From Ereboglobus sp. (GTDB lineage Bacteria > Verrucomicrobiota > Verrucomicrobiia > Opitutales > Opitutaceae), in NCBI GenBank assembly GCA_029974595.1, contig JARKRC010000027.1, positions 124,001 to 188,000 of the forward strand: a stretch of DNA of 64,000 nucleotides. The letters are read 5' to 3'. The notes under the pieces are model-generated. The model searched no databases. It saw nothing but the letters and a program-made list of their open reading frames with translations, and was not told the DNA's origin. The number at the start of each line of letters is the position of its first letter. The stretch's first letter is position 1. Position numbers and translations under genes: made by a program. Shown piece after piece: positions 5,556-57,380 of the stretch.

Positions 5556-5642
5556 AAGTAGCGGGCAAGAGGTAGCGGGTAGCCAAGCCGCCGTTGTTTG
5601 TGGTTTTTCTGCTCGCTACTCGCTACTCACTGCTCGCTACTT
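5556..5642. repeat. Inverted array of 7-nt words (CTCGCTA family)
   Basis: Arms 5556-5583 and 5615-5642 (28 nt each) are imperfect inverted copies around a 31-nt centre. The right arm reads as 7-nt units CTCGCTA, CTCGCTA, CTCACTG, CTCGCTA; the left arm has the same period on the other strand. Most mismatches are transitions. It lies between the receptor stop and the PepSY start, and would fold as a long RNA hairpin in a shared transcript. Confidence 0.8.
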
Positions 5643-11812: not shown

Positions 11813-13207
11813 TTATTTCAGCGCGGGCAGGCTCGCAGCGGCGATTGCCTGGCCGTGACGTTTGTCTTTTTCGTCGGGCATGCCCAAGCGGATGCGTTCG
11901 GCGTATTCGGGAAATTCCCCGCGCAGGACTTCGCGCGCGCGTTCGAGGATGCGCTCGCCACCCTCGCCCGATGTCACGCGGCCGAGCACGAGCAGGTGGC
12001 GCACGTCGTAAAAATCGGCATAGTGCGCAACGGCGTAGCCGAAGCACACGCCGATCGAATCATAGATGGCCGCCGCGCGCGGATCGCCCGCGGCCATGGC
12101 TTTTTGCACTTCGACGAGGCGGTCGGCAAACGGCATCGAGTCGGCAAAATCGAAACCGGCCTTGGCCGCAAAACGCGCCACGCCTTGCTGCGAAAAATAC
12201 TGCACGCCGCAACCCAGGTCGCCCGACCATTCGTCGCGGGGCGCGCCCTCGCGGTAATCGACGGGTGCGAAGGCGAGCTCGTTGAGCCACGGTGTGATAG
12301 CGCCGTCTGGCCGCACGTAACCGCCCGCCATGCTGGTGCCCATCGAGACGCCGAGCACGGCGTTGTCGCCGAGCGACATCGAGCCGGCGAGCGCGGTGAC
12401 CTCGCCGTCGTTGACGACCTCGAACGGCACCCCGCCCCAGCGTTCCTGCAGGGTGAAAAACATGCGGCGGATGTGTTTTTCGAAAAGCTCCGGCGGCACG
12501 CCGCGGAAGAGCGAGGCGACGCGCACCTCGTTGTTCACATACACGCCCGCCGAGCTGCCGCCGATCGCGTCAACACGGGGCAGGTGCGCCGCGGCGCGCT
12601 TGAGCGAATCATGCACGCCCTCGATGTGATACGCGGGGTCCTTTTGGAAATACGGATCCCAAGGGATTTCCTCGGAGAAAACGACCTTGCCGTCGATCAC
12701 GGCGGCGGCCTTGCGGTCGCTGCCGCCAAGGTCAAAGCCGATGCGGCAGCCTTCGAGATGGCGGCCCATTGGGAGGCCTGCAACGCGCTCCTGCGGCATG
12801 TCGTCGGGCGAGGCGGTGGCCACGATTTCAAACGGGCGGCCGTAAACCTTTTCGCCCATGAATTCGCCGTCGAAGGCGCGTTCACCCTGCGGTCCGTAGG
12901 CGTGGGCCAGCGCGCGGGCGATTTCCGGCGCGCCCTGCACGACGACGCGGCAGCCGCCTTTTTGCCAGAGCAGGAATTTCAAGAGCCGCTCGGCGTATTT
13001 GAAATTCAACGCCGCCGCGGGATGCGCCTCGGCGAGCACGCGACTGTCGTGGCGCGTCACGGTGCCATCGGCCTGCACAAGCGCGAGCGCGAACGGGCGC
13101 GACGCCGGATCTGCGGCGGCGAGTTTTTTATACGCGCGGTTCCAAAGCGGAGCGGGCAGATAATCGGTGTCGAGGGCGGGAATATATCGGGGAGCGATGG
13201 ATAACAT
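11813..13207 (-). CDS. ROK-like sugar kinase, long form lacking the Cys zinc motif
   Basis: A 464-residue ASKHA-fold kinase. The phosphate-binding motif is FDLGGSDRKAAAV near residue 160, the catalytic acid lies in EVVNDGEVTALAG near residue 270, and the second glycine loop is GVSMGTSMAGGY. It is about 150 residues longer than ordinary ROK kinases, with an extra N-terminal region. The usual ROK zinc motif C.CG..GC.E is absent; the equivalent place reads DLGCGVQYFSQQG. The ATG at 13207 is used because upstream codons are low-complexity non-coding. With the neighbouring PIG-L gene it probably phosphorylates an amino sugar or a related hexose; the substrate is inferred from context. Confidence 0.75.
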   Translation of the reverse strand: MLSIAPRYIPALDTDYLPAPLWNRAYKKLAAADPASRPFALALVQADGTVTRHDSRVLAEAHPAAALNFKYAERLLKFLLWQKGGCRVVVQGAPEIARALAHAYGPQGERAFDGEFMGEKVYGRPFEIVATASPDDMPQERVAGLPMGRHLEGCRIGFDLGGSDRKAAAVIDGKVVFSEEIPWDPYFQKDPAYHIEGVHDSLKRAAAHLPRVDAIGGSSAGVYVNNEVRVASLFRGVPPELFEKHIRRMFFTLQERWGGVPFEVVNDGEVTALAGSMSLGDNAVLGVSMGTSMAGGYVRPDGAITPWLNELAFAPVDYREGAPRDEWSGDLGCGVQYFSQQGVARFAAKAGFDFADSMPFADRLVEVQKAMAAGDPRAAAIYDSIGVCFGYAVAHYADFYDVRHLLVLGRVTSGEGGERILERAREVLRGEFPEYAERIRLGMPDEKDKRHGQAIAAASLPALK

Positions 13208-15365: not shown

Positions 15366-17272
15366 CACTCCAGCTCCCTGATCATGATATTCCTGCATTG
15401 TTTCACGCGATCCGCGGGCATCAAGCGTATGGGGCCGCCTTGCATGGCGGCATCACTGACCGACCACGCCATGCAGCCGTCAACGGTAAGCGTGATGACA
15501 GAACCTCGCGCGGTCAGCTCGTAACTGTGCCAGCCTTTCAAATCGCGCAACGACCGCATAAGCACATGCCCCGGCGGCGGCGTCACCGGCACGGGATATC
15601 CACCGCGCACCGTGATGCCGCAAAAACCGGGTGTGGTTTCCGTATCGAGCTCAAAGGTGAGGATAAAATCACGGTATTCTTTCGCACTCTCCAGCGGATC
15701 CGCGCCCCTTTTCGCATCTTCAAACAACGGCACGGCCGGGCGTCTGTACTCGGGCGAGACGCCCAGTTGCGCCAAGCGCCGTTCATGCACGGGCCAGCGC
15801 GCCTCGAAATCCGCCAAGTCACCGGCGCGGCCCTCGGACCAGAGCGTTTCGGCCACGCAAAGCGCGCGTGGATACAACCGTTTTTCGACAAGACCCTGCT
15901 CCGTTGCCCACATGCAGGCCTGCCCGCCGAGGATCAACGCGCGCGGCGGAAGTTTTGCATATTTCACCCTGGCCGCGCCGGGTCTCGGGTCTTCGGCGCC
16001 AAAAAGCGTGGGATTCCAGTCCCTTACGGCGGAGAGCGCCACGCCCTCCCTAACGCCAAACGATGTCAAGTAAAGCGGCGCATAAGAGGAGTTGATCATG
16101 GTATATCCCGCCGCAGCCAGCGCTTGGGCGTTTTTATGATTTGTCCATGCATGAATGGTGATTTCCCGCGGAGGCATTGGCTCGACGCCGGGGTGGATGG
16201 CGTCATTCCAGACAATGAGCTTTTTGCCGTTCCGTTTCGCAATATCATTCAGATCCATGACAAAGGTATGATAAAATGCATCCAGCGTGGCCACGCCCTT
16301 GGCCTTCATGCGCAGCTGGCAATCCGGGCAATCTTTCCAACGCTTGATCGCAAAAGGCTCGTCGGCGCCCAAATGCAGGTAGCGCGACGGAAATATCGCC
16401 GCGACCTCCGCAATCACCTTCTCCATAAACTCCCACGTAAACGCTTTTCCCGGGCAAAGGATGCTATCGTTCATCTCGCGCGTCCTGCCCTCGCAATCAA
16501 GCTGCGGATAGGCCGCGATCTCGGCATGCGAATGCCCCGGAAAATCCAGTTCCGGCACAATTTCCACGCCATAACGCGCGGCGTATTTTACAAGCTCGCG
16601 CAACTCATCCTGCGTATAAAATTTCTCGCCGGGGCGATTGCATTTTGGAAACGCCTTTGTCTCGAACGCCCACGACTGATCGTCGATCAGGTGCAAATGG
16701 AGCATGTTCATTTTATAAGCCGACATCACGCGAATCGTGCGCCGCACAAAATCCAGTTCGAGAAACGAGCGCGAGGGATCGAGCATGAGCCCGCGCCAGG
16801 TGCGCGCAGGCTGGTCGTTGATGGACGCATGACCGATATAATATTGCCCATTCTCGCATTCGATTCCCTGGAGAAGTGTCTGCGCGCCCCAAAGGAGACC
16901 TTCGGTCGAAGACGACGCCACGACAATACCCTTCCCTCCAACCTCCAAAGAATAAGACTCACGGGCGCAGACGTCCGCCGAAGACGGGGTCTGCAATATA
17001 AATGTCACCGCGCCAGGCTCGATGGCATCGGAGGCGGCCAGCTTGCAGGCAAGCGAGGTCTGCTCCTTGAGCGCTTCCGCAAAGACCTCGGCGATTTCGC
17101 GGACGCGACTGGGGGACTGCGCAGGGACGCTCACGCGCAGTCCGGGCTTGAGCAGTTCGCGGCCCGCGCCTTGTTCGAGGCGGAGGGGCTTGGGCATCAT
17201 TGTATCGAAGCCCGCTGCGTGCGCGAGAATCGCGGCGGCAATATACAAAAAGAGGGTGATTGCTCGCCGCAT
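15365..17272 (-). CDS. Beta-N-acetylhexosaminidase, GH20 (copy nearer the receptor)
   Basis: A 635-residue exported enzyme. The signal is MRRAITLFLYIAAAILAHA. The N-terminal GH20b-like domain spans about residues 25-145, followed by the GH20 barrel with HLHLIDDQSWAFE and the catalytic Asp-Glu pair in HLGADEP. About 130 residues after the barrel are beta-rich and may bind carbohydrate. GH20 enzymes release terminal GlcNAc or GalNAc by substrate-assisted catalysis in which the Asp orients the acetamide. It starts 14 nt after the TonB receptor stop, so they share an mRNA. Probable job is trimming imported amino-sugar oligosaccharides in the periplasm. Confidence 0.9.
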   Translation of the reverse strand: MRRAITLFLYIAAAILAHAAGFDTMMPKPLRLEQGAGRELLKPGLRVSVPAQSPSRVREIAEVFAEALKEQTSLACKLAASDAIEPGAVTFILQTPSSADVCARESYSLEVGGKGIVVASSSTEGLLWGAQTLLQGIECENGQYYIGHASINDQPARTWRGLMLDPSRSFLELDFVRRTIRVMSAYKMNMLHLHLIDDQSWAFETKAFPKCNRPGEKFYTQDELRELVKYAARYGVEIVPELDFPGHSHAEIAAYPQLDCEGRTREMNDSILCPGKAFTWEFMEKVIAEVAAIFPSRYLHLGADEPFAIKRWKDCPDCQLRMKAKGVATLDAFYHTFVMDLNDIAKRNGKKLIVWNDAIHPGVEPMPPREITIHAWTNHKNAQALAAAGYTMINSSYAPLYLTSFGVREGVALSAVRDWNPTLFGAEDPRPGAARVKYAKLPPRALILGGQACMWATEQGLVEKRLYPRALCVAETLWSEGRAGDLADFEARWPVHERRLAQLGVSPEYRRPAVPLFEDAKRGADPLESAKEYRDFILTFELDTETTPGFCGITVRGGYPVPVTPPPGHVLMRSLRDLKGWHSYELTARGSVITLTVDGCMAWSVSDAAMQGGPIRLMPADRVKQCRNIMIRELE

Positions 17273-28756: not shown

Positions 28757-28905
28757 GTCAAAAGCAGAAGAGTGAAGTGTGAAAGGTGAAGTGTGAAAAG
28801 GGCGAGTGAGAGCCGAAGCACAAAGCGCGAAATTTGCGCGAGCCTTCGGGTTTCCTGTCTTTCACCCCTCACTCTTCACCTTTCACACTTCACTCTTCTT
28901 TTGAC
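28757..28905. repeat. Inverted array of 7-nt words (AGTGTGA family)
   Basis: The left arm (28757-28799) reads as units AGAGTGA, AGTGTGA, AAGGTGA, AGTGTGA. The right arm (28860-28905) is the inverted array TTCACCC, CTCACTC, TTCACCT, TTCACAC, TTCACTC. The outer boundary gtcaaaag/cttttgac is complementary, and the centre carries a nested ccgaag/ccttcgg stem. It fills the gap between divergent mpl and marC-like genes. Confidence 0.85.
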
Positions 28906-43337: not shown

Positions 43338-44084
43338 ATGCAAGACGCTCCTCGTCCGCTTGATTCATCCGTAAAATACAAACGCATCGTCCTCAAATTG
43401 AGCGGGGAGGTTCTCCGCAGCGGCAAAACAGGCGATCCGTTTGACCGCGCGATCCTCGACAAAATCTGCGCACAGGTTAAGGAAATCTACAATCTCGGCG
43501 TGCAAATCTGCCTCGTCATCGGCGGCGGCAATATTTTCCGCGGCCTCCAAGGCGAAAAGCGCGGCGTCGATCGCACCACCGGCGATTACATGGGCATGCT
43601 CGCCACCGTCATCAACTCGCTCGCGCTCATGGACAGCCTTGAAAAATGCGGTGTCGTCACGCGTGTCCAAAGCGCCATCCCCATGAACCAGATCGCCGAG
43701 CCCTTCATCCTGCGCCGCGCCATGCGCCACCTCGAAAAAGGCCGCGTGGTCATCTTCGCCGCCGGCACCGGCAACCCGTATTTCTCCACCGACACCACCG
43801 CCGCCCTCCGCGCCTCCGAAATGCACGCCGACATCATCATGAAGGCCACCAAGGTTGACGGCATTTACGACAAGGATCCGAAAAAATATCCCGACGCCGT
43901 CAAATACGACGAGCTCACCTACATCGACGCCCTCAAGCAGCGCCTCAATGTCATGGATTCCACGGCGTTCTCGCTTTGTCTCGACAACAACGTCCCCATC
44001 CTCGTGTTCGACCTCAACGCCGATCATGCCATCCTCAAGGCCGTGCGCGGCGAAAAAGTCGGAACGCTCGTCCACGGCGGATGA
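43338..44084 (+). CDS. pyrH: UMP kinase
   Basis: A 248-residue amino-acid-kinase-fold enzyme. It has the phosphate loop [10 protein letters not shown] near residue 20, [12 protein letters not shown] near residue 57, the UMP-binding [17 protein letters not shown], and the late loop [32 protein letters not shown] and [16 protein letters not shown] complete the PyrH pattern. It phosphorylates UMP to UDP with ATP in the cytosol. frr follows after 139 nt, a near-universal bacterial pairing. The N-terminus has about 10 extra residues before the kinase core. Confidence 0.97.
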
Positions 44085-44088
44085 GTCG

Positions 44089-44160
44089 AATGCGGAATGG
44101 GGATTTCGGAATGGGGAATTGACAAACCGCAAACACGAACACCTTCACGCATTCCGCATT
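44089..44160. repeat. Inverted array of 7-nt words (GAATGGG family)
   Basis: Left side: GAATGCG, GAATGGG, GATTTCG, GAATGGG, GAATTGA in 7-nt register (44088-44122). Right side: CGCATTC, CGCATTT (44148-44161). The 11-bp arms aatgcggaatg / cattccgcatt (44089-44099, 44150-44160) are perfect inverse copies. It lies between pyrH and frr. Confidence 0.75.
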
Positions 44161-44223
44161 TGCCAACCGCTCCCGCCCCTTTAGTTTTCTATCCAACAAC
44201 AATCTTCAACACCCGCATACACC

Positions 44224-48042: not shown

Positions 48043-48215
48043 GCACCCGCTTTTGTCCTTCCGCGACCCGCGGACGGCTTTTTGCGCGTATGATAAATTA
48101 TTTTATCGAAAATTCCGCGCGGTGTGTTCTAAGCAATCACGTCTCAACCACCAACGTGAGCGCACTCAACATAAACCCGCACACCAGCAACGCGGCCCCG
48201 CCTGCCAGCCCAACG

Positions 48216-49097
48216 ATGAACGTCGCCGAAGTCACAGCCAAGGCAAAGGTGCTCCTCGAAGCACTCCCCTATATCCAGGATTTCCACGGTTCCACTTTCG
48301 TCGTGAAATACGGCGGCAGTTTCATGGACGATCCCGACCCGACCGTCCGCAACCGCGTTGCCTACGACATCGCGTTTCTTGCCGCGGTCGGCATCAACGT
48401 CGTCGTCGTGCACGGCGGCGGCAAGGCCATCACCAAGGCCATGTCCGAATCCGGCCTCAAAGCCAGCTTCGTGCAAGGCATGCGCGTCACCGACGAGCCC
48501 ACCATGGCCATCGTCAAGAAGACGCTCGACGAAGTCGTGAACAAGGACGTGTGCGCCGCCGTCGCCGCCGCCAAGGGCAAACCCAAGGGGCTCCCCGGCG
48601 ACAGCGTCCTCGAATGCGCAAAAATCACGACCGACGACGAAGGCAAGCCCATCGACCTCGGCTACGTCGGCGACGTCACCGAGGTAAAGGTGAAAATCAT
48701 CAAAAAGGAAATCGCCGAAGGTTTCACCCCCATCATCTCGCCGGTCGCCGAAGGACTCGACGGCAAGCCCTACAACGTGAACGCCGACCTCGCCGCGGGC
48801 CGCGTTGCCAGCGCCCTGCGCGCCCGCCGCCTCGTTTACATGAGCGACGTACCCGGCCTCCTCTCGAATCCCGCCGATCCGTCATCGCTGATTTCCACCC
48901 TGAAAATTTCCCAGGTGGACGACCTCAAGAAGAAAGGCGTGATCGACAAAGGCATGCGCCCGAAAGTGAACAGCGCCATCCGCGCCCTCCAGGAAGGCGT
49001 GCAGCGCGTCCACTTCATCGACGGACGCCTCCCGCACAGCCTGCTCCTCGAAATCTTCACCGACAAAGGCATCGGCACAGAAATCGTGCACGGCTGA
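48216..49097 (+). CDS. argB: Acetylglutamate kinase
   Basis: A 293-residue amino-acid-kinase-fold enzyme. It has the phosphate loop [11 protein letters not shown] near residue 30, [13 protein letters not shown] (substrate glycines), the conserved [31 protein letters not shown] and [12 protein letters not shown]. The ending GIGTEIVHG is standard for ArgB. It phosphorylates N-acetyl-L-glutamate, the second step of arginine synthesis. The ATG at 48216 gives a normal length; the open frame to 48090 adds an atypical Asn/Ser-rich piece. argD follows across a 31-bp inverted repeat. Confidence 0.95.
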
Positions 49098-49100
49098 GCT

Positions 49101-49232
49101 GAAATTACGATTTACGAATTACGATTTACGATTGAAAGCCCCTGCGCCAATTATCACGCGCCAATGTTTTCTCATATTTGTAACTCCGGCCTTTCCTTCA
49201 TTCGTAAATCGTAATTCGTAAATCGTAATTTC
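49101..49232. repeat. Perfect 31-bp inverted repeat of 7-nt words between argB and argD
   Basis: Arms 49101-49131 and 49202-49232 are perfect inverse copies, 70 nt apart. Each consists of alternating ATTACGA and TTTACGA words in 7-nt register. The right arm ends one base before the argD ATG (49234), so it occupies the place of the argD ribosome-binding site. Folding would sequester the argD start region. Confidence 0.92.
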
Positions 49233-49233
49233 C

Positions 49234-50445
49234 ATGAGAACCCATATCGTCCGCACCAGCACCGCCGACCTCTACGACGCGTATGTTTTGAAAAACTACG
49301 CGCGCGCGCCCATCACGCTCGCGCGCGGACAAGGCACGCAAGTCTGGGACGACGAGGGCCGCGCCTACCTCGACTTCACCTCCGGCATCGCCGTGAGCGC
49401 GCTCGGCCACTGCCACCCGCACTGGGTCGCCGTCATGCAGCGCCAGGTCACGGAGCTCATCCACACGAGCAATCTCTTCCGCAACTCCAACCAGGCCGAA
49501 CTCGCGCGCCGCCTCGTCGGTTACGCCGGGCCCGGACGCGTTTTCTTCTGCAACAGCGGCACCGAGGCCAACGAGGCCATGATAAAACTCTCGCGCCTCC
49601 ACGGCATGAAAAAAGCCGGCGGCATCGAGGGCAAATGCTACAAGATCATCTGCGCCAAAAACGCCTTCCACGGCCGCACCTTCGGCGGCATGAGCGCCAC
49701 GCCCCAGGAAAAAATCCAGAAAGGTTTCGCGCCTCTCGTCCCTGGTTTCGTTTTTGCCGAGTTCAACAACCTGCAAAATTTCGCCGACCTCGTTGACGAA
49801 AGCACCGCCGCCATTTTTATCGAAACCATCCAGGGCGAAAGCGGCGTGAACGAGTGCACGCGCGAATTCCTCGGCGGCCTGCGCGCGCTCTGCGACAGGC
49901 ACAACCTGCTCCTCATGATCGACGAGGTGCAATGCGGCATCGGGCGCACCGGCAAATTCTACGCCTTCGAGCACGCGGGCATCCGCCCCGACGCGATCGG
50001 CATGGCCAAGGGACTCGGCGGCGGCATGCCCATGGGCGCTATGTGGGTGCGCGAAGATCGCGCCGATCTTTTTCACGCCGGACACCACGGCTCAACCTTC
50101 GGCGGCACGCCGCTCGCCTGCGCCGCCGGCCTCGCCGTGCTCGACGTGATCGAGCGCGAAAACCTCCTCGAAAAAGTCACGCGCCAGTCCGCGCCGTGGA
50201 TTACCTCGCTGAAAAAACTCGCCGCCGATTTTCCGCAAAAAGTCGCCGGCGTGCGCGGCACGGGTTATCTCGTCGGGGTGCAAATGACGGGCGACATCGC
50301 GCCCACCGTCGCGGCGCTGCGCGAACGCGGCCTCCTCGCCGTCGGCGCGGGCAACAACACCATCCGCCTCCTCCCGCCGCTCAACGCGAGCGCGGAAGAT
50401 CTCGCAAAATCAACGGATATTTTCCGCAGCGCGCTGGCCGGGTGA
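49234..50445 (+). CDS. argD: Acetylornithine aminotransferase
   Basis: A 403-residue class III aminotransferase. It has the PLP pocket NSGTEANEAMIKLSRLHG near residue 105, ETIQGESGVNECTREFLGGL, the Asp in LLMIDEVQCGIGRTGKFYAF, the Schiff-base Lys in GMAKGLGGGMPMGAMWV, and HGSTFGGTPLACAAGLAVLD. It converts N-acetylglutamate semialdehyde to N-acetylornithine in arginine synthesis. No Shine-Dalgarno is visible because the repeat arm abuts the start codon. The gene follows argB in the same orientation. Confidence 0.95.
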   Translation: MRTHIVRTSTADLYDAYVLKNYARAPITLARGQGTQVWDDEGRAYLDFTSGIAVSALGHCHPHWVAVMQRQVTELIHTSNLFRNSNQAELARRLVGYAGPGRVFFCNSGTEANEAMIKLSRLHGMKKAGGIEGKCYKIICAKNAFHGRTFGGMSATPQEKIQKGFAPLVPGFVFAEFNNLQNFADLVDESTAAIFIETIQGESGVNECTREFLGGLRALCDRHNLLLMIDEVQCGIGRTGKFYAFEHAGIRPDAIGMAKGLGGGMPMGAMWVREDRADLFHAGHHGSTFGGTPLACAAGLAVLDVIERENLLEKVTRQSAPWITSLKKLAADFPQKVAGVRGTGYLVGVQMTGDIAPTVAALRERGLLAVGAGNNTIRLLPPLNASAEDLAKSTDIFRSALAG

Positions 50446-57163: not shown

Positions 57164-57380
57164 AAATTCCAAATCCCGGCTACCAAATCCCAAAAAAATC
57201 CCAACGTCCAATGGACAAATCCCAAAGGGAGCAAACAGCGTGTCGGCGTGTGAATGGCGCGGGCATGTGACGGAAGAATATTAGAGCGCGGACGTTTTGT
57301 GTGAATGAATGTTTTTTGAAGTTTGGAGTTTGGGATTTGGAATTTATTTGGAATTTGGAGTTTGGGATTTGGAGTTTCGC
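57164..57380. repeat. Inverted array of 7-nt words (GGATTTG/GGAATTT family) between ABC genes
   Basis: Left side: aaattccaaatccc (57164-57177) and two further caaatccc copies. Right side: GAAGTTT, GGAGTTT, GGGATTT, GGAATTT, then GGAATTT, GGAGTTT, GGGATTT, GGAGTTT (57318-57376) in 7-nt register. The arms at 57164-57177 and 57332-57345 are perfect inverse copies. The end of the ATPase gene reads into this array, giving its tail NSKSQTPNSK. Confidence 0.88.

Follow-up and report, generated by a model that had tools for sequence, protein, structure and literature searches.

A heptad-armed palindrome between argB and argD of Ereboglobus, probably one copy of a dispersed intercistronic repeat

Background

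Heptameric repeats of the types GGGAATC and GGGGA(C/T)T have been described in Xanthomonas and Nostoc (Rehm et al. 2015, PMC4692102). They often form convergent inverted pairs (70 and 75 cases), are intergenic and mostly situated between aligned ORFs, and are found shortly after stops on the coding strand and shortly before starts on the other strand; 83% of the heptad repeats of one species were at the same place in a sister species (PMC4692102). Direct TAACTGA repeats that end a few nucleotides upstream of starts are known from the marine Beggiatoaceae, where Shine-Dalgarno sequences are few (MacGregor 2015, PMC4679880). Slippage is the explanation quoted for the excess of heptamers in both papers (PMC4692102, PMC4679880). 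An excess of heptads in bacterial genomes is already described, with its cause and function left open in these papers.

ERIC sequences are palindromic repeats of about 100-130 bp in transcribed intergenic regions, MITEs normally show target duplications, and in E. coli REP sequences shortly after a stop codon are reported to protect the 3' end of the mRNA. Opitutus terrae belongs to the same family as Ereboglobus. REP sequences are described as GTAG- and CGTC-tagged palindromes of 20-40 bp with stems of 5-13 bp that occur with RAYT transposases (PMC3733652, PMC12306157). O. terrae is reported to be highly enriched in GTAG repeats (PMC3733652), and for E. coli ribosome stalling is reported where a REP is no more than 15 nt from a stop codon (PMC12306157, which cites Liang et al. 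2015). Within the literature covered, with most subscription journals and all preprints outside it, no description was found of heptad hairpins in Opitutaceae or of different spellings at one orthologous gap.

Results

The repeat studied here is found between argB (acetylglutamate kinase, 48090-49097, + strand; NCBIfam TIGR00761, 222.6 bits against a cut-off of 151.3) and argD (acetylornithine/succinylornithine family transaminase, 49234-50445, + strand; NCBIfam TIGR00707, 468.7 against a cut-off of 410.05) in a window of 64,000 nucleotides, the whole stretch of Ereboglobus DNA that was analysed. The argD start is the ATG at 49234-49236, which is supported because the alignments of the closest homologues begin at residues 1-5. 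The first-pass annotation had described a perfect 31-bp inverse heptad repeat with alternating units that ends 1 nt from this ATG. A sequence check confirms the description: 49202-49232 is the exact reverse complement of 49101-49131 (31/31), and ATTACGA and TTTACGA alternate in both arms. The arms can be extended to 36 nt with one mismatch, giving a left arm at 49101-49136 and a right arm, inverse of the left, at 49197-49232 (both +), which are 60 nt apart. The spacer or loop (49137-49196) is by eye unlike the spacers of other copies save at its two ends, GATTGAA and TTCATTCG. The left arm begins 3 nt past the argB stop TGA (49095-49097), a single base, the C at 49233, separates the right arm from argD, and the repeat is 132 bp overall with the ends GAAATTACG.

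A strong RNA hairpin, as the annotation had proposed, is predicted for this segment, with an uninterrupted 31-bp stem at -59.2 kcal/mol (z = -7.6). None of 200 shuffles of the repeat folded equally well, and period 7 was the commonest (17) among the tandem arrays scoring at least 12 in the 400-kb contig, where periods 5, 6, 8, 9, 10 and 11 gave 0 to 7 arrays; for these two reasons chance is excluded as the source of the repeat. There is one G in each ATTACGA or TTTACGA unit, and G-tracts capable of forming a quadruplex are absent. Between 48900 and 49400 neither an intrinsic terminator on the + strand (GC-rich stem followed by a U run) nor a sigma-70 promoter was found. Rfam gave no match at gathering scores in the whole window, and near the repeat just one chance-level match to SNORD94 (14 bits against 60).

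The window's own genome (G000) was compared with three other Ereboglobus genomes, namely G001, G002 (65% complete) and G003 (Ereboglobus sp. PH5-10), and with more distant relatives. A query of 451 bases from the argB-argD region gave at least 68 matches in G000, a total in which each arm and each strand counts and which includes the self-match of the query and one match of argB-like type; the figure is a lower bound since 40 of the 89 candidates were scored. Grouped by hand, the ATTACGA elements of this genome occupy 23 sites, and of the 22 that were read about 14 have two arms while the others have single or broken arms. The inner ends GATTGAA...TTCAATC or TTCATTC are common to many of these copies, with variable spacers. 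The same kind of hairpin also occurs in G000 with the heptad spellings GATTTTC, AATTAAG, AAGTAGA and GTGAAGT. Copies of the GATTTTC spelling are 77-92% identical between loci over their full length, spacer included, across the four Ereboglobus genomes.

The match counts per genome for three spellings are lower bounds wherever part of the candidates went unscored. At E <= 1e-6 ATTACGA matches number 44 in G000 and 2 in G013, and the element is absent at this threshold from the other 27 of 29 genomes, including all of G001-G003 (G002 being 65% complete). GATTTTC (E <= 1e-4) gives 33 matches in G000, 24 in G001, 45 in G002, 57 in G003, 22 in G017, 10 in G005, 4 in G007 and one each in G004, G006 and G018. 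GGAATGC (E <= 1e-6) gives 42 in G000, 44 in G001, none in G002, 20 in G003, 2 in G004 and one each in G007 and G012. The annotation had suggested recent formation of the argB-argD repeat, and this is likely given that ATTACGA is found in only one of 28 relatives (G013) and in none of the three genomes of the same genus. The perfection of the repeat, held to set it apart from other arrays, is real but not distinctive: with 22/22 complementary positions against 18-21 it is the best of the eight ATTACGA copies compared, hence the top of a graded series and no separate kind.

The window contains further elements of this type. An inverted pair with GTGAAGT/GTGAAAG heptad arms of 31 nt each is found at 28766-28899 (contig positions 152766-152899). 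A degenerate GAATGCGG/GAATGGGG array of GGAATGG type (44088-44164, + strand, in the gap 44085-44164) has by eye a short inverse partner at 44149-44164. The array begins 3 nt past the stop of the ORF at 43338-44084, which we take to be pyrH, and in G003 a GATTTTC-type hairpin begins 3 nt past the stop of the homologous ORF. Of two more heptad arrays in the window, one is of the CTCGCTA type (5557-5641) and has upstream of it an inverse partner that has diverged, and the other is a direct TTTGGAA/TTTGGAG array (57307-57377). The window's contig (C25), on which the window occupies 124001-188000, also has non-heptad palindromes of similar size at 15940-16085, 93147-93202, 205823-206011, 236706-236854, 254567-254640 and 397229-397418, some of them recurrent, e.g. 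ACGCGTGCGACAAGGAG..., CAAAGACGCAAAG... and GGTGGCACGGGCTTCCAGCCCGTG.

Thirty heptad hairpins from G000 were placed relative to genes; the 400-kb contig supplied 4 of them, and 14 stretches picked for ATTACGA or GATTTTC matches supplied the other 26. Four were dropped as overlapped by a called gene, which left 26 usable elements; genes were called with a simple home-made caller, and the null came from 110-nt intervals placed at random in non-coding DNA. The flanking genes are co-directional at 24 of the 26 (null 0.40), convergent at one and divergent at one. All 24 co-directional elements start no more than 17 nt past the upstream stop (null for <=20 nt: 0.10), and in 19 of them (19/26 of the whole set, null 0.005) each end is at most 20 nt from the ORF on its side. 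G001, G002 and G003 yielded 19 elements, one of which was dropped, from stretches that are mostly counterparts of the G000 regions and partly orthologous to each other. Sixteen of the 18 are within 19 nt of a stop or overlap it and only 8 are within 20 nt of a start, so the stop codon of the upstream gene is the steadier anchor. Among the neighbouring genes are a ribosomal-protein operon and a cell-wall/division cluster, named from their translated starts and not from a family search.

Long-range synteny between the window and its relatives is limited to short blocks. For 48 gaps in three operon regions the counterparts were located in G001 (47), G003 (46) and G002 (15), with presence called by script and spellings judged by eye. 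The 14 gaps that hold a hairpin in G000 have the same spelling in 3 cases, a different array or hairpin in 4 and none detected in 7 when compared with G003; compared with G001, 5 differ and 9 have no detected counterpart, though weak or non-heptad repeats are present in some of these 9. On contig C13, position 6772 has ATTACGA in G000 and GATTTTC in both G001 and G003, and position 11879 has a 131-bp AATTAAG hairpin in G000 where both sisters have about 32 nt of intergenic sequence. The ribosomal-protein cluster (L182, C13:12001-30000) contains eight intergenic heptad hairpins in G000; in both sisters none was detected at four of these gaps, and a differently spelled array or hairpin is present at three. 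The argB-argD gap has a GGAATGC hairpin in G001, a 9-mer array in G002 and nothing in G003. Co-occupancy above chance was not shown in the three operon regions, with 5 of 14 hairpin gaps against 6 of 33 other gaps occupied in G001, and occupancy in G003 was not clearly higher at the hairpin gaps (7 of 14 against 7 of 32). A swap of spelling at one gap may therefore partly be coincidence in these regions. Other unit types that fill gaps in the sister genomes are a CTGAAGG-type hairpin (L200) and the CTGATCTGG unit of the 9-mer array in the argB-argD gap of G002 (L030).

The first-pass annotation proposed that the hairpin displaces any Shine-Dalgarno sequence and controls the translation of argD relative to argB. 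No such signal exists to be displaced: 13 of 237 ATG starts on C25, as set by the home-made caller, are preceded by a Shine-Dalgarno 4-mer, against 14.4 expected from shuffles. The sole clear start context is a C at -1 (59% of the 237 starts), which argD also has. A search of the own genome for the 16S rRNA, as a source of the anti-Shine-Dalgarno sequence, gave no match, so that this conclusion is drawn from the upstream sequences only. Control of argD is further weakened by the occurrence of the element between many unrelated genes, among them ribosomal-protein genes, which means that it is not an argD device, and by the same gap in close relatives, where the repeat is missing or another hairpin is found. 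A lack of the repeat in close relatives was one part of what the annotation had itself named as refuting a regulatory role. The two arms of a copy show no copy-specific co-variation (permutation p = 0.87 for 8 ATTACGA copies and 0.51 for 4 GATTTTC copies). Arms of one copy match no better than arms across copies, hence nothing indicates that pairing is repaired locus by locus, within the resolution of so few copies. Compensatory arm evolution was thus rejected as proof of RNA function, and the lack of co-variation also speaks against argD control. On these sequences, specific hairpin control of argD is unlikely.

In 75 relatives with a readable argB-argD gap, detection by script gave a heptad hairpin in 12, an array without a detected partner in 7 and a gap shorter than 40 nt in 27. 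The same detection gave 7 hits among 329 sampled co-directional gaps, three of which were argB-argD gaps (G000, G001 and G004). Over 66 named loci, nine strict hairpins in 4.4 kb of argB-argD gap compare with four (one merely GC-rich) in the other 372 kb. Plain neutral dispersal is insufficient here, since the average gap is occupied far less often than this one. Hairpins of several other Opitutaceae also end 0-5 nt ahead of argD. A tree of ArgD was built by a quick method (63 rows, 15 with a hairpin, labels by eye), and on it the presence of a hairpin requires 14 changes. The GATTTTC spelling requires 8 changes, 6 of them forced by well-supported branches, and ATTACGA 3, of which 2 are forced. 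All labels together take 18 changes against 19.3 in shuffles, a value as low being reached in 34 of 200, and the hairpin labels are therefore little clustered. A single ancestral argB-argD hairpin was rejected on the 14 changes and the differing spellings, with labels assigned by eye. Occupation of this gap across Opitutaceae looks like repeated gain or loss and not like one inherited regulator, as far as the compared sequences indicate.

Inspection by eye of five empty sites, where intergenic divergence hides old junctions, revealed no target-site duplication. The four Ereboglobus genomes together have 62 matches to Y1_Tnp (RAYT). Six of these loci were read, two of them cut by contig ends, and at none of the six does a heptad hairpin directly adjoin the match, so that no linked transposase emerged from them as a mobilising enzyme. 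At one Y1_Tnp locus (G003, C9) a heptad pair is found on the far side of the neighbouring gene, at a distance of about 1.6 kb. These 6 of 62 matches gave no support to REP/RAYT mobilisation. Mobility is consequently inferred from the distribution of copies only, given that neither a target duplication nor a linked transposase was found. G002 has 42 of the Y1_Tnp matches, most of them spanning only about profile positions 5-67, compared with 6-8 in each of the other Ereboglobus genomes.

Discussion

The heptad hairpins of Ereboglobus are a dispersed family with turnover at stop-codon-proximal gaps. The repeat between argB and argD is probably one copy of such a dispersed, REP-like intercistronic palindrome of about 100-130 bp with inverted tandem-heptad arms. 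The elements would spread as repeats and persist in those gaps of co-transcribed genes where they are tolerated. On the mRNA of argB and argD, the 31-bp stem would begin 3 nt past the argB stop. Any effect on expression would most likely be REP-like and act behind this stop, by stalling of the terminating ribosome or by protection of the mRNA 3' end, and not by masking a ribosome-binding site of argD.

Whether the position behind the stop reflects function is a separate matter. A hairpin within about 15 nt of the stop could stall the terminating ribosome or block 3' decay, in which case function and not insertion bias would set the spacing. This is possible although doubtful: 40 of 42 co-directional elements in four genomes are spaced no more than 19 nt from the stop, and stalling is reported for E. 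coli REPs at up to 15 nt (PMC12306157), but sister species have no element at many of these gaps, the ribosomal-protein operon being no exception, copy-specific arm co-variation is lacking, and in tightly packed operons the stop-proximal position could be the sole tolerated place. A more far-reaching and rather unlikely idea is that the stop-codon slot inside operons without a Shine-Dalgarno signal is a structural module, refilled with hairpins of unrelated heptad spelling. If the strong stop-start stem is kept and its sequence is not, unrelated repeats would replace one another even in ribosomal-protein operons. It is hardly probable that the hairpin is a bridge which folds the gap away, brings stop and start side by side and keeps translational coupling without a Shine-Dalgarno sequence. 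Such a bridge would fit the missing Shine-Dalgarno signal and the 19 of 26 G000 elements in co-directional gaps whose two ends are each at most 20 nt from an ORF, yet only 8 of 18 elements in the sister genomes are that close to a start, and short gaps yield the same geometry without selection.

Origin in place, with period-7 slippage and template switching between the arms making and renewing arrays locally and no movement between loci, is improbable. Period 7 is strongly favoured over other periods, the arms within one copy are near-identical, slippage is quoted for the heptamer excess in both heptamer papers (PMC4692102, PMC4679880), and no target duplications were seen by eye at the five empty sites. 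However, one spelling with the same order of A/T variants recurs at unrelated loci, the GATTTTC family has 77-92% identity between loci with the spacer included, and several occupied sites are empty in sister genomes. The shared spelling, the shared variant order and the whole-length match of GATTTTC copies, spacer included, mean that copying between loci is needed. A locus-specific hairpin that regulates the translation of argD relative to argB is very improbable. The predicted stem does end 1 nt from the argD ATG and hairpins of several other Opitutaceae end 0-5 nt ahead of argD, but the same element is present in many other gene pairs, G003 has no hairpin and the tree indicates repeated gain or loss, there is no use of Shine-Dalgarno sequences to regulate, and in 27 of 75 relatives the gap is below 40 nt and has no room for a hairpin. 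A dispersed intercistronic palindrome thus remains the preferred reading of the argB-argD repeat.

This reading guards against labelling a dispersed repeat an arginine regulator. What deserves following is the broader pattern, in which the hairpins behind stop codons are exchangeable. Ereboglobus offers a clean comparative system in which the same junctions are empty or differently spelled in sisters, even in the ribosomal-protein cluster, and with it tolerated parasites, slippage products and action on the mRNA behind stops can be tested against each other.

The repeats resemble several known systems and differ from each. REPs are also dispersed palindromes and are partly found shortly after stop codons. 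Unlike REPs, the argB-argD repeat is 132 bp long with arms of 31-36 bp and a perfect stem of 31 bp, is built of heptads, and has no GTAG or CGTC tag but the ends GAAATTACG; a transposase linked to the family did not emerge from the 6 of 62 Y1_Tnp loci read. Like ERIC it belongs to palindromic repeats of about 100-130 bp in transcribed intergenic regions, and its heptads distinguish it from both ERIC and MITEs. The target duplications normal for MITEs were not visible at the five empty Ereboglobus sites inspected, where old junctions are hidden by divergence. The TAACTGA repeats share heptads that end a few nucleotides before starts and the scarcity of Shine-Dalgarno sequences. They have, however, one spelling in direct repeats without a hairpin pair, apart from one reported indirect case, whereas the argB-argD repeat has another sequence in inverted order. 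The nearest known system is the GGGAATC inverted heptad pairs of Xanthomonas. As in that type, the heptads of the argB-argD family are arranged in tandem, form convergent inverted pairs and are situated between aligned ORFs (24/26 co-directional, 24/24 at most 17 nt from the stop and 19/24 also at most 20 nt from the start). The Xanthomonas and Nostoc repeats are G-rich and quadruplex-forming, whereas the ATTACGA repeats of Ereboglobus are AT-rich and have no quadruplex G-tracts. Further differences from the Xanthomonas type are that a single Ereboglobus genome contains several spellings and that one orthologous gap can be spelled differently from genome to genome.
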